DNA of 64,000 nt from an uncultured Bacteroidota bacterium. Lineage in GTDB: Bacteria; Bacteroidota; Bacteroidia; Flavobacteriales; Flavobacteriaceae. The notes under the pieces are model-generated. The model saw nothing but the letters and a program-made list of their open reading frames with translations. It ran no database searches and was not told the DNA's origin. Made by a program: the position numbers and the translations under genes. This document shows positions 1-4,200 of the stretch, piece after piece. Positions within the stretch are counted from its first letter, which is position 1; every line of letters begins with the position of its first letter. The DNA is taken from NCBI GenBank assembly GCA_902598305.1, contig CACKBL010000002.1:124001-188000 (forward strand), read 5' to 3'.

Positions 1-1064
1 TTAGCAAATTCAACCTTAAAACCAAATTCTTCAGCTACTATTGTTAGAGTTTCAGCATCTAGCCTTTGATTCATTGTTACCATTATCCCCAATGACATAC
101 AAGCAGATATAATTTCATTGCCTGCAACCTCCATCATAGTTGCAACTTCTCCCACGGTGATAAACTCTGTTACCCTTAAGGTTTTACTTTGCGCTTCTTG
201 AATGGCTTGCTCTTCTTCGGTTTTTTGTTTATGTTGAACTCTCTTATCTCTTCTGTATTTTGCCCCTTTAGATTTTGAGGATTTACCCTGAAGTTTTTCT
301 AAAGTCTCTCTAATTTGTTTTTGGACTTCTTCCTCAGAAGGTTCAACTTTTAAATTTTGAATTTTACTCGATTCCTTCTTTTTAGGCTGATTTTTTTTTG
401 ATTGAATATTTTCAGCATTCGGTTTTTTTTGATTGGTTTCTTTGGTTACAATTCTTTTTCTTTTTTTCTTTCTAGAAGCTTCAACACTTTTTTCTTGCTC
501 TTTAATTTTTTCCAAATCAACCGTCTCTCCAGTCTTAACAGGAGCGACAATTTTTTTATAAATAGTAGTTAATTTTTCATTATCTAGAGGAAGTTTTTCT
601 TCATTACTATTCTTATCAATACTTGAATCTTGATTTGCATCTTTTTTTACTATTTTTTTGTCTTCATTTTCTTGTAGTGTTAAATCTTTAGATAGATTTT
701 TTTTCGAATTCAAATCAATTTTCCCTACGGGTTTAAATTTTCTTACAGAACTACTAGCGGTTATTATTTCAGTATTTTTTTCTGTGTTGATGATTTTTTC
801 TTGTTCTCTTTTTTCCTGCTGAATTCTTAAATTTTCCTTTTCCTTTCTTTTTTCCTCACTAATTTCAGCAGATTCATCCTTTTTTGACTTATCGACTTTA
901 AATCCTTCTAATAACAATTCATAGGTTTCTTGAGAAATTTTTGTTGTAGGCCTTGCCTCAATCTCACAACCAACATTTGATAAATACTCCACAGCTCTAT
1001 CTAGAGAAATGTTTAGCTCTCTTAAAACTTTATTTAATCGTAATGTAAGTGCTTTATCTGCCAT
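1..1064 (-). CDS. infB: Translation initiation factor IF-2, N-terminal part (cut by window edge)
   Basis: The reverse strand encodes a protein starting MADKALTLRLNKVLRELNIS at the ATG at 1064-1062 and staying open to base 1. The first ~50 residues match the helical IF2-N type domain of Bacteroidota IF-2. A long, low-complexity Lys/Glu/Ser-rich linker follows, and the visible end (about residues 325-354) has a second IF2-N repeat around DAETLTIVAEEFGFKVEF. The GTPase domains, which position initiator tRNA on the 30S subunit, lie beyond the window. It is the last gene of rimP-nusA-infB, 34 bp after nusA, the conserved order in most bacteria. Family assignment is firm; only completeness is unknown. 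Confidence 0.93.
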   Translation of the reverse strand, partial: MADKALTLRLNKVLRELNISLDRAVEYLSNVGCEIEARPTTKISQETYELLLEGFKVDKSKKDESAEISEEKRKEKENLRIQQEKREQEKIINTEKNTEIITASSSVRKFKPVGKIDLNSKKNLSKDLTLQENEDKKIVKKDANQDSSIDKNSNEEKLPLDNEKLTTIYKKIVAPVKTGETVDLEKIKEQEKSVEASRKKKRKRIVTKETNQKKPNAENIQSKKNQPKKKESSKIQNLKVEPSEEEVQKQIRETLEKLQGKSSKSKGAKYRRDKRVQHKQKTEEEQAIQEAQSKTLRVTEFITVGEVATMMEVAGNEIISACMSLGIMVTMNQRLDAETLTIVAEEFGFKVEFA

Positions 1065-1098: not shown

Positions 1099-2331
1099 CT
1101 ATTCTTCAAATTCTTCCTTTAAAATTCTAATTACTTCTTTTATGGTTTCTTCCTCTAGGTCGGTTCGTTTGATAAGTTCTGACTGATCTAATTCCAAAAT
1201 ACTTTTTGCCGTATCAAGTCCCACCTTTTTAAACTCCTCAATAACCCAATCATCAATTTCATCTGAGAATTCACTTAATTCCACATCTTCCTCCATACCC
1301 TCTCTATATACATCAATTTCATAACCAGTTAATTGTCCTGCAAGTCGAATGTTATTGCCTCCCCTGCCAATTGCTTTTGAAACCTCTTCTGGATTTAAAA
1401 AAACTTGAACTCTTTTGTTATCCTCATCAATCTTTAAGGAATTTACTTTTGCTGGCGAAAGGGATCGAGTAATATAAAGTTGTAAGTTGTTAGTGTAGTT
1501 TATTACATCAATATTTTCATTTCCCAACTCTCTGACTATACCATGTATTCTAGATCCCTTCATTCCGACACATGCGCCAACCGGGTCTATTCTGTCATCA
1601 TATGAGTCTACCGAAACTTTAGCTTTATCTCCAGGAATTCTCACTGCTTTTTTTATGTTAATAAGACCATCAAAAACTTCTGGAATTTCCTGTTCAAATA
1701 ATTTCTCCAAAAATTTAGGGGAGGTTCTTGTAAAAACTATTCTAGGTTTGTTTCCCCTTAGTTCAACACTCTCAATTATTCCTCTAACACTGTCACCTTT
1801 TCTGTAAAAATCAGAACCAATCTGTTTGTCCTTTGGCAATATCAACTCATTACCGTCATCATCCAATAAAATCACCTCTCTATTTCTTACATGATGGACC
1901 TCAGCTGTGTAAAGTTCTCCTTCAAGTTCCTTAAATTGCTTGAATACATTTGTAGAGTCATGTTCATGAATTTTAGATACCAAATTTTGTCTTAGTGAAA
2001 GAATTACTCTCCTCCCTAAATCTATTAATTTAACCTCCTCGGATACATCTTCACCAACTTCGAAATCTGGTTCAATTTTTCTAGCTTCAGTCAACTCGAT
2101 TTCTTGGTTTGGATCCTCTACTTTACCATCATCAACAACAATCCTATTTCTCCAAATTTCTAAATCACCCTTGTCTGGATTTATGATAATATCAAAATTT
2201 TCGTCTGACCCATATTTTCGTTTCAATGTGTTTCTAAAAACCTCTTCGAGTATTACCATGAGGGTAACTCTGTCAATAAGTTTTTCATCTTTAAATTCTG
2301 AAAACGATTCTATAAGAGCTAAATTTTCCAT
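1099..2331 (-). CDS. nusA: Transcription termination/antitermination factor NusA
   Basis: A 410-residue RNA polymerase-binding factor that modulates pausing, intrinsic termination and antitermination. The N-terminal RNAP-binding domain spans about residues 1-125. An S1 domain follows at about 130-205, then KH1 around VGMKGSRIHGIVREL (about 250-265) and KH2 around AIGRGGNNIRLAGQL (about 320-335). The C-terminal tail is acidic (about 350-410), and the long acidic-repeat extension of E. coli NusA is absent, as usual in this phylum. It starts at ATG 2331, 7 bp after the rimP stop, so the two are probably co-transcribed. NusA itself may act on the hairpin in the operon leader; this is inference. 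Confidence 0.96.
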   Translation of the reverse strand: MENLALIESFSEFKDEKLIDRVTLMVILEEVFRNTLKRKYGSDENFDIIINPDKGDLEIWRNRIVVDDGKVEDPNQEIELTEARKIEPDFEVGEDVSEEVKLIDLGRRVILSLRQNLVSKIHEHDSTNVFKQFKELEGELYTAEVHHVRNREVILLDDDGNELILPKDKQIGSDFYRKGDSVRGIIESVELRGNKPRIVFTRTSPKFLEKLFEQEIPEVFDGLINIKKAVRIPGDKAKVSVDSYDDRIDPVGACVGMKGSRIHGIVRELGNENIDVINYTNNLQLYITRSLSPAKVNSLKIDEDNKRVQVFLNPEEVSKAIGRGGNNIRLAGQLTGYEIDVYREGMEEDVELSEFSDEIDDWVIEEFKKVGLDTAKSILELDQSELIKRTDLEEETIKEVIRILKEEFEE

Positions 2332-2338
2332 ATTTTTT

Positions 2339-2803
2339 TTAATTTAAAATTACATGGGCTTTTTTATATTCGCCGTAATTAAAGTTTTTTGACAGATCGA
2401 CAGTTACCTTCCCTTTGCCAATTTTTTTTGGTTGTCTTTCTTTCCACTTTATTTCAAAACTCAAATTTGAAACTTTTGAAAGAACACCACTATATTTTTG
2501 GTCATCAAAGTCCGTTATTTCAATCTTTCTAGATATATTTTTTTTGAATTGTCTCATTAGTTTTAATGGATAATCAATTCCACAAGATCCAATCTCAACG
2601 GAATAATTAATTTCATCTTGGTTTAGATTTTTTTTAATATCGGAATTAATCGATACACAATCTTTAAGAGTTAAACCATTATCTCCGTCAAGAAATACTT
2701 TTACATCATTGTTAGCACCAAAAGTTATGTCTATCAAGAAAATTGATTCATAATTTTCAAGTACTTTACTCAAAATATCTCTAAATTTTTGTTCAAATTT
2801 CAT
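2339..2803 (-). CDS. rimP: Ribosome maturation factor RimP
   Basis: A 154-residue cytoplasmic protein needed for 30S subunit maturation. The N-terminal alpha/beta domain contains the conserved region ending VEIGSCGIDYPL (about residues 75-90), the RimP hallmark usually written VSSPGxDRPL. The C-terminal SH3-like barrel covers about 95-150. The reading frame stays open upstream to 2851, but that extension would be translated through a perfect hairpin and lies at or beyond the predicted transcript start. The ATG at 2803 (MKFEQKF) gives the usual family length and was chosen. First gene of rimP-nusA-infB. Confidence 0.93.
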   Translation of the reverse strand: MKFEQKFRDILSKVLENYESIFLIDITFGANNDVKVFLDGDNGLTLKDCVSINSDIKKNLNQDEINYSVEIGSCGIDYPLKLMRQFKKNISRKIEITDFDDQKYSGVLSKVSNLSFEIKWKERQPKKIGKGKVTVDLSKNFNYGEYKKAHVILN

Positions 2804-2804
2804 A

Positions 2805-2831
2805 TAAAAAAAAAGAAGACATTTGTCTTCT
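2805..2831 (-). terminator. Terminator-like hairpin in the rimP leader (candidate attenuator)
   Basis: On the minus strand AGAAGAC-AAAT-GTCTTCT forms a perfect 7-bp stem with a 4-nt loop (2814-2831). It is followed at once by a run of nine T (2806-2814), which ends three bases before the rimP ATG. This is the form of an intrinsic terminator. No minus-strand gene lies between it and the divergent gene at 2956, so it sits in the leader of rimP-nusA-infB. Structure is seen directly; attenuator function is inferred. Confidence 0.7.
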
Positions 2832-2850
2832 ACCTCTCCCAAAAACACCA

Positions 2851-2882
2851 CGAAATTACTTTAATTTTTTCATTATAGCAAA
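2851..2882 (-). promoter_or_regulatory. Candidate rimP-nusA-infB promoter
   Basis: On the minus strand TTTG (2882-2879) is followed after 20 bp by TAATTTCG (2858-2851), one mismatch from the Bacteroidota -7 element TAnnTTTG. Spacing is within the usual range. A start a few bases downstream would give a leader of about 40 nt, nearly all occupied by the hairpin at 2805-2831. Confidence 0.5.
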
Positions 2883-2932
2883 TCTTATATCAATAGAAAG
2901 ACAATTCATGGAGATTTGATTTAAAATATGAT

Positions 2933-2955: not shown

Positions 2956-3969
2956 ATGATTAAAACCGATATTCTAATCATTGGTGCTGGACCTGTAGGC
3001 CTATTTGCTGTTTTCGAAGCTGGTCTTATGAAACTTAGATGTCATATAATTGATATCGTTTCAAGTCCAGGTGGCCAACTGACTGAGCTGTATCCAAAAA
3101 AACCAATATATGATATTCCTGGATATCCAAAGATACTTGCAGGAAAACTCATTGAAAATTTATTAGAACAGGCAAAACCATTCAAACCTGGTTTCACATT
3201 AGGAGAAAGGGCGGATTCATTTAAAAAAATTGGTGAATTTTTCGAGGTTACAACTAATGTGGGAACAAAACTCCAAGCTAAAGTTATTTTTATTGCTGGG
3301 GGACTTGGGAGTATGGAACCACGAAAACCTAAAATTAGTTTGATTGATAAATTTGAAAGGAAAGGTATTGAATTTTATGTGAAGAACCCTGATGCTTATT
3401 TAGACAAAAAAATATCAATATCTGGAGGAGGAGATTCTGCTCTTGATTGGGCAATTTATTTTTCAAAAAAATGTAAACACCCAATTAATTTAATACATAG
3501 AAGTAAAAGTTTTAGAGCCAATAAAGATTCAGTCGATAAGGTATTTGAACTAAACAAAGGTGGAAAACTTAACTTATATCTCGATTCCGAAGTTATTTCA
3601 ATAGATGGTAAAAATGATCATTTAAATTCGTTGTCGGTTAAAGATAGAAATGAGACGAAGTATAATCTTGAGACAGATTATTGGTTTCCTCTTTTTGGAT
3701 TGGTACCAAAGTTAGGGCCACTAGGGAATTGGGGGTTGGATATAGTAAAAAATGCAATTAGTGTTGACAATGCAAATGATTACAGCACCAATATAAAAGG
3801 CATCTTTGCAATTGGAGATATAAATACCTACGAAGGAAAATTAAAGCTAATCCTGTGTGGATTTCATGAAGCAACCTTAGCCGTTCACGGCGCATATAAG
3901 ATAATACATCCAGATAAAAAGAAAACTTTAAAATATACTACCATTCAAGGGGTAACAGGATTCGATTAA
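2956..3969 (+). CDS. Ferredoxin--NADP(+) reductase, thioredoxin-reductase-like type
   Basis: A 337-residue FAD flavoprotein of the TrxR-like ferredoxin/flavodoxin-NADP+ reductase group. FAD-binding GAGPVG is at residues 10-15, followed by a Bacillus/Bacteroidota-type GGQLTELYPKKPIYDIPG segment (about 42-60). The NADPH site ISGGGDSALDW is near residue 155. The FAD-closing region GIFAIGDINTYEGKLKLI is near 285. The redox CxxC of true thioredoxin reductase is absent, which separates this group from TrxB. Start: ATG 2956 rather than TTG 2938. It is monocistronic, divergent from rimP, and followed by the hairpin at 4089. Electron partner cannot be told from sequence. Confidence 0.88.
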   Translation: MIKTDILIIGAGPVGLFAVFEAGLMKLRCHIIDIVSSPGGQLTELYPKKPIYDIPGYPKILAGKLIENLLEQAKPFKPGFTLGERADSFKKIGEFFEVTTNVGTKLQAKVIFIAGGLGSMEPRKPKISLIDKFERKGIEFYVKNPDAYLDKKISISGGGDSALDWAIYFSKKCKHPINLIHRSKSFRANKDSVDKVFELNKGGKLNLYLDSEVISIDGKNDHLNSLSVKDRNETKYNLETDYWFPLFGLVPKLGPLGNWGLDIVKNAISVDNANDYSTNIKGIFAIGDINTYEGKLKLILCGFHEATLAVHGAYKIIHPDKKKTLKYTTIQGVTGFD

Positions 3970-4088: not shown

Positions 4089-4118
4089 CCCCCAAATTTT
4101 TATTTGGGGGTTTTTAAT
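4089..4118 (+). terminator. Rho-independent terminator
   Basis: CCCCCAAAT (4089-4097) pairs perfectly with ATTTGGGGG (4102-4110) and is followed by TTTTTAATTTTT. It lies 120 bp after the reductase stop codon and 10 bp from the 3' end of the oppositely transcribed tRNA-Gln, so it ends the reductase transcript and could also help end the tRNA transcript. The rest of 3970-4088 holds no gene, only a weak AT-rich inverted repeat (about 4019-4058). Confidence 0.85.
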
Positions 4119-4127
4119 TTTTAAAAG

Positions 4128-4200
4128 TTGGCCCACTAGGGCTCGAACCTAGACTCTTCTGAACCAAAATCAGACGTGTTGCCAGTTACACCATGGGCCA
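4128..4200 (-). tRNA. tRNA-Gln (UUG)
   Basis: On the minus strand the 73-nt sequence starts TGGCCCA and ends TGGGCCA plus discriminator A, giving a full 7-bp acceptor stem. Anticodon stem TCTGA/TCAGA encloses loop TTTTGGT, so positions 34-36 read TTG. The T arm has CTAGG-TTCGAGC-CCTAG. No CCA is encoded; the next bases read CTT. It stands alone in the 391-bp gap between the reductase and the DUF2723 gene. The right part of that gap (4243-4360) holds only AT-rich upstream sequence. Confidence 0.97.

Follow-up and report, generated by a model that had tools for sequence, protein, structure and literature searches.

A terminator-like hairpin conserved ahead of the nusA operon in Bacteroidota

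The stretch analysed here, a 64,000-nucleotide (nt) window from contig CACKBL010000002.1 of an uncultured member of the Flavobacteriaceae (GCA_902598305.1), begins with a minus-strand operon of rimP, nusA and infB. A perfect stem-loop followed by a U-tract lies in the short leader of this operon (Table 1). The original prediction had described a perfect 7-base-pair (bp) hairpin with a T9 run between a predicted promoter and the rimP ATG. It is indeed seen there on the minus strand, with T9 counting one paired T, and the end of the stem is 10 nt from the ATG. Comparison with relatives confirms that the hairpin is a real, deeply conserved terminator-like element, and it stays with nusA rather than with rimP.

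Table 1. Features at the start of the window, in window coordinates.
Feature	Position	Strand	Description
Terminator-like stem-loop	2814..2831	-	AGAAGAC-AAAT-GTCTTCT, 7 bp, perfect, 4-nt loop
5' stem arm	2831-2825	-	AGAAGAC
Loop	2824-2821	-	AAAT
3' stem arm	2820-2814	-	GTCTTCT
U-tract	2806..2813	-	T8; T9 including the last, paired stem T; 2 nt (AT), then rimP ATG
rimP	2339..2803	-	154 amino acids (aa), first gene of the operon; ATG at 2803; NF002531 above cut-off
nusA	1099..2331	-	410 aa; TIGR01953 above cut-off; NusA_N and KH domains
infB, 5' part	3..1064	-	IF2_N domain; continues beyond the window edge
Pyridine-nucleotide-disulphide oxidoreductase	2956..3969	+	Divergent from rimP
Candidate promoter -7 box	2851..2858	-	TAATTTCG; 19 nt upstream of the hairpin; one mismatch to TAnnTTTG
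Alternative promoter-like stretch	2872..2887	-	TAAGATTTGCTATAAT; largely conserved in the genus; putative
Segment immediately 5' of the hairpin	2832-2840	-	GGGAGAGGT
Upstream open reading frame (uORF)	2793-2822	-	9 codons, opening with an ATG where loop and stem meet; out of frame with the rimP start, which it overlaps
tRNA-Gln (TTG)	4127-4200	-	
Palindromic hairpin	4089-4110	-	Follows tRNA-Gln on the same strand

The claim that there is no upstream gene to terminate holds in the window. The next gene, encoding the oxidoreductase, is divergent, so no co-directional gene lies directly upstream. The claim of a predicted promoter stands in part. Both candidates (2858-2851 and 2877-2872) are upstream of the hairpin, but the assignment is less certain than proposed: the TATAAT-like box at 2877-2872 matches the E. 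coli-type consensus, whereas the host group's own box is TAnnTTTG, the Bacteroidota -7 consensus (PMC9723704), to which TAATTTCG has its one mismatch. Five of the six loci of the genus carry an exact TAnnTTTG at the position of TAATTTCG.

The isolated hairpin has a folding energy of -7.5 kcal/mol, and the fold of the 82-nt leader has a z of -2.6, with 4 of 200 shuffles equally or more stable. A generic scan for terminator-like sites finds no excess (8 in 12 kb against 7.2 expected), which would suit a chance hairpin without function. What distinguishes the hairpin is its position. Its score is attained in 2 of 1000 cases when the 154-nt intergenic region is shuffled, and among the 49 window open reading frames (ORFs) of at least 120 aa, rimP alone has a terminator of this kind within 120 nt upstream. 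The segment GGGAGAGGT could pair with the U-tract and lengthen the stem; it is not conserved in the genus. The uORF begins at an ATG that is present in 6/6 genus loci and absent in the sister clade L032-L037, and this restriction to the genus rules out a conserved uORF.

We collected 204 loci via NusA from 60 and 198 genomes and 80 GTDB contigs, taking up part of the matches, and counted each level after removing three duplicates (L031, L105, L149). Hairpin and U-tract lie upstream of rimP-nusA-infB in 6/6 genus, 120/122 family, 21/22 order, 28/28 class and 22/23 distant phylum loci. The original prediction hinged on conservation in related genomes, and the hairpin is indeed kept across the class. 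The misses are L042 (contig end), L140 (longer spacer, element visible), L136 (a 0.3-Mb genome) and L188. Three loci counted by the lenient finder are unconvincing by eye, namely L174 (class) and L199 and L201 (phylum). The window's score is attained by 167 of 201 real upstream regions, as against 19 of 1005 shuffles. Several counts below omit L042, L051, L112, L116, L136 and L174 (contig end, another or longer hairpin picked, or no element); L044 is also left out of the alignment list, and L199 and L201 of the count of upstream gene orientation. In L140, about 97 extra bases separate the terminator hairpin from the rimP start. Six distant phylum loci (L185-L189, L195) carry another stem at the same place, of GCCCG...CGGGC type followed by GT and TTTTT, whose C-rich 5' arm is the opposite of the Bacteroidia form.

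Within the family the consensus is GAGGGGAC-N3..7-GTCCCCTC-TTTTTATA, and most members have GGGGAC/GTCCCC where the window has AGAAGAC/GTCTTCT. A search with the exact stem pattern and no T-tail gave a single site in 108 of 149 family genomes and none in the other 41; no genome had two. All 30 of these 108 loci that were fetched lie 486-573 nt before nusA. A T-rich tail follows the stem in 30/30, although the pattern does not require it, and in 27 it is TTTTTATA. An alignment of 49 hairpins with MAFFT misaligned unequal loops, and covariation was therefore assessed on 28 hairpins of equal length, with loop-anchored counts on 128. In the 28, all 224 of 224 cells are paired, five of the eight pairs have changed on both sides, and 0 of 500 shuffles score as high. 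The stem sequence is also conserved beyond the needs of pairing. Together with the shuffle scores, the single exact stem per genome and the conservation across levels, the covariation makes a functionless chance hairpin scarcely credible. In two family loci (L141, L142) the stem core is GCACGC/GCGTGC, with outer pairs and TTTTTATA tail unchanged.

The window's own genus carries GAAGAC/GTCTTC and a long run of T, in single copy in six of the seven genomes; in G004, the remaining genome, the contig starts within nusA. No second exact copy of the hairpin was found in the 149 family or 7 genus genomes, which rules out a regulon sharing the same hairpin. Weak stems go with T-rich tails. At least eight of the 10 bases that follow the core are T in 49 of 126 family loci, whose mean core energy is -6.3 kcal/mol versus -14.7 kcal/mol in the rest, and all 29 imperfect stems fall in this group. 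The raw rho is 0.81 for the T count and 0.72 for the T run, the T count being partly built in, since an end pair whose 3' base is T, once trimmed, adds that T to the tail.

The box TAnnTTTG precedes the hairpin by 12-33 nt (median 25) in 171 of 175 Bacteroidia loci. The leader is roughly 45-60 nt long in most relatives. If transcription starts about 6 nt after the box, the RNA 5' of the hairpin measures 16-21 nt in the middle half of loci. This arrangement bears on whether the hairpin might end an upstream transcript and be retained as insulation. A co-directional ORF, which would suit such a terminator, is the nearest one upstream in 40 of 153 loci, but in 90 the upstream gene is divergent (23 were not called), and nearly all loci have the box shortly before the hairpin. 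Divergent neighbours and the intervening promoter thus rule out an upstream-gene terminator, and we regard the insulation variant as highly improbable.

A competing antiterminator was not found: in 0 of 157 Bacteroidia leaders could a duplex between the upstream RNA and the 5' arm match the hairpin in stability. The mean energy of such duplexes is weaker in real leaders than in shuffled ones (-0.44 versus -0.83 kcal/mol). The window's own leader, which has no exact TAnnTTTG, is outside the 157; its fold keeps and extends the hairpin. No Rfam family scores above its gathering score at the element in the window or in eight relatives. An antiterminator or riboswitch is ruled out by the short leader, the low complementarity and the absence of an Rfam family at the element. 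Since no upstream RNA outcompetes the hairpin, control should come from a factor acting in trans.

Natural losses of rimP separate the two candidate partners of the element. A profile search finds no RimP_N match anywhere in 11 Flavobacteriales genomes, and the window's RimP as query yields no significant match there, the lowest E being 0.02 (0.3-Mb genome). Completeness is 92-100% in four of these genomes, 86-88% in two and without stated value in five. The rimP-less set comprises only these 11 Flavobacteriales genomes without any match, as the hidden Markov model failed to pick up an existing rimP in six distant genomes. In the distant genome G221, rimP and nusA are on different contigs, and it adds no information. 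Hairpin and U-tract are retained upstream of nusA in 10 of the 11 rimP-less genomes, the exception being the 0.3-Mb genome, so the element follows nusA. The hairpin lies 20-33 nt from the nusA start in seven of the ten and 108-145 nt in three (L058, L126, L131). TAnnTTTG precedes it exactly in eight and with a mismatch in two (in L023 a farther exact box was disregarded). L058, counted as rimP-less, holds an apparent rimP remnant. A tRNA-like sequence much like the window's tRNA-Gln is found directly upstream of the nusA promoter in seven rimP-less loci (L023, L071, L073, L084, L086, L127, L128).

The persistence of the hairpin in these genomes makes RimP unlikely as the sensed protein. It also bears on a role in the mRNA, where the hairpin would stabilise the 5' end or serve as an operator through which a product of the operon controls translation. 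The conservation of the stem sequence would fit such a role, as would the U-tract of the window's clade, which almost abuts the start codon. However, the U-tract adjoins the stem in 30/30 loci without being required to, the distance from stem to start codon ranges from 7 to 112 nt among loci, and RimP, which the hairpin outlasts, is an unlikely sole ligand. We consider an mRNA-level function improbable.

The element resembles the rimP-leader (Naville and Gautheret 2010, PMC2965389). No attenuator is more widespread according to that study, which reports a conserved GGGc(...)gCCC stem, describes no antiterminator and sees NusA as the prime candidate for the regulator. Shared features are a short hairpin with a G-rich 5' and C-rich 3' arm in most relatives, a U-stretch, the place in the leader of rimP-nusA-infB and the absence of an antiterminator. 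In the window the hairpin lies in the 5' leader, and its 10 nt to the ATG fall within the 4-130 nt from the gene start that define the class; T8-T9 directly follow the stem, and neither the 157 leaders of relatives nor the window's fold offers an antiterminator. The window stem has no GGG, whereas the family mostly has GGGGAC/GTCCCC. The window copy is thus a drifted variant of the rimP-leader that lacks the published GGG motif. Rfam RF01770, named for the gammaproteobacterial rimP leader, does not match at the element in the window or the eight relatives.

The rimP-leader was described for Firmicutes and Gammaproteobacteria, and words beginning with 'Bacteroid' or 'Flavobacteri' are absent from the main text of that paper (PMC2965389). 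The original prediction had E. coli autoregulate this operon by a different route. This contrast does not hold, as E. coli K-12 has the same kind of hairpin, read in its sequence as GGGC-loop-GCCC with T7 just upstream of rimP, and Gammaproteobacteria are among the carriers; it differs in that metY and a second hairpin precede the rimP hairpin. For Flavobacterium psychrophilum, a conserved structured 5' element upstream of rimP is listed, in the same family and at the same gene as in the window, kept in other genera and without an Rfam match; the listing names it without giving structure or mechanism (PMC9723704).

Mondal et al. (2016) reportedly dealt with the terminator in the B. subtilis nusA leader. 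That leader is not known to have an antiterminator. For B. subtilis NusA, autoregulation is stated to work by termination in the 5' leader that NusA itself stimulates (PMC12288461). The B. subtilis leader is 180 nt long (PMC2965389), and Bacteroidia leaders are much shorter; an effect of NusA would here be by analogy. Searches of open full texts, which contain few subscription papers and were judged mostly from the listings, showed no description of NusA feedback through this element in Bacteroidota. The kind of element and its likely mechanism are already known; what is added is the Bacteroidota form, the link to nusA and the drifted A-U version of the window.

We favour, with some confidence, a premature intrinsic terminator (attenuator) by which NusA would limit its own operon. 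Hairpin and U-tract would form this terminator in the short leader that separates the promoter of the operon from its first gene. Some polymerases would stop at the hairpin and release a short leader RNA, and the others would read through into rimP-nusA-infB. The terminator appears suboptimal, the window having a short A-U-rich stem and a long U-tract, and NusA on RNA polymerase would then raise termination. High NusA would thereby lower its own transcription and low NusA would permit read-through. We infer that termination may occur here, that it may be partial and that NusA may drive it from the position, conservation and covariation of the hairpin, its U-tract, the lack of an antiterminator and its retention with nusA after rimP loss. 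The negative feedback by NusA that had been proposed from the DNA is plausible, being the leading published hypothesis for the class (PMC2965389) and reportedly established in B. subtilis (PMC12288461).

Several points weigh against this mechanism. The strong 8-bp G-C stems of most family members could terminate without NusA. Compensation of a weak stem by a long U-tract is suggestive and varies by measure under phylogeny: contrasts give r = 0.55 for the T count and a non-significant r = 0.14 (p = 0.11) for the T run, with few independent changes (5 on the tree). A general termination factor alone leaves the stem sequence, conserved beyond pairing, unexplained. A leaky terminator or pause site could instead act constitutively, holding read-through at a constant low level or pausing polymerase near the promoter with no feedback from NusA. 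This would fit all the sequence evidence, which agrees with a terminator without showing regulation, and would fit the T-run contrast. We think it possible but unlikely, as the element stays beside a gene for a termination factor even after the loss of rimP, and regulation within the nusA leader is reported for B. subtilis (PMC12288461).

Beyond autoregulation by NusA-stimulated termination, the GAGGGGAC/GTCCCCTC stem, with at most one exact copy per Flavobacteriaceae genome and always at the nusA operon where checked, hints at a sequence-specific control site. NusA or another RNA polymerase factor might read it. The feedback might go back to before Bacteroidota diverged from the phyla in which it is described, and window-type lineages might have exchanged a lost G-C motif for a weak A-U stem and a long U-tract. 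We offer this as a tentative and rather doubtful proposal.

With these findings the rimP-leader class takes in Bacteroidia at large, a group whose promoters and translation initiation depart from the models, and the natural losses of rimP show that the element is tied to nusA and not to rimP. The alternative designs seen among relatives, on one side a strong stem and a short interrupted U-tract, on the other a long U-tract behind a weak or bulged stem, are ready test constructs for what sets NusA dependence.
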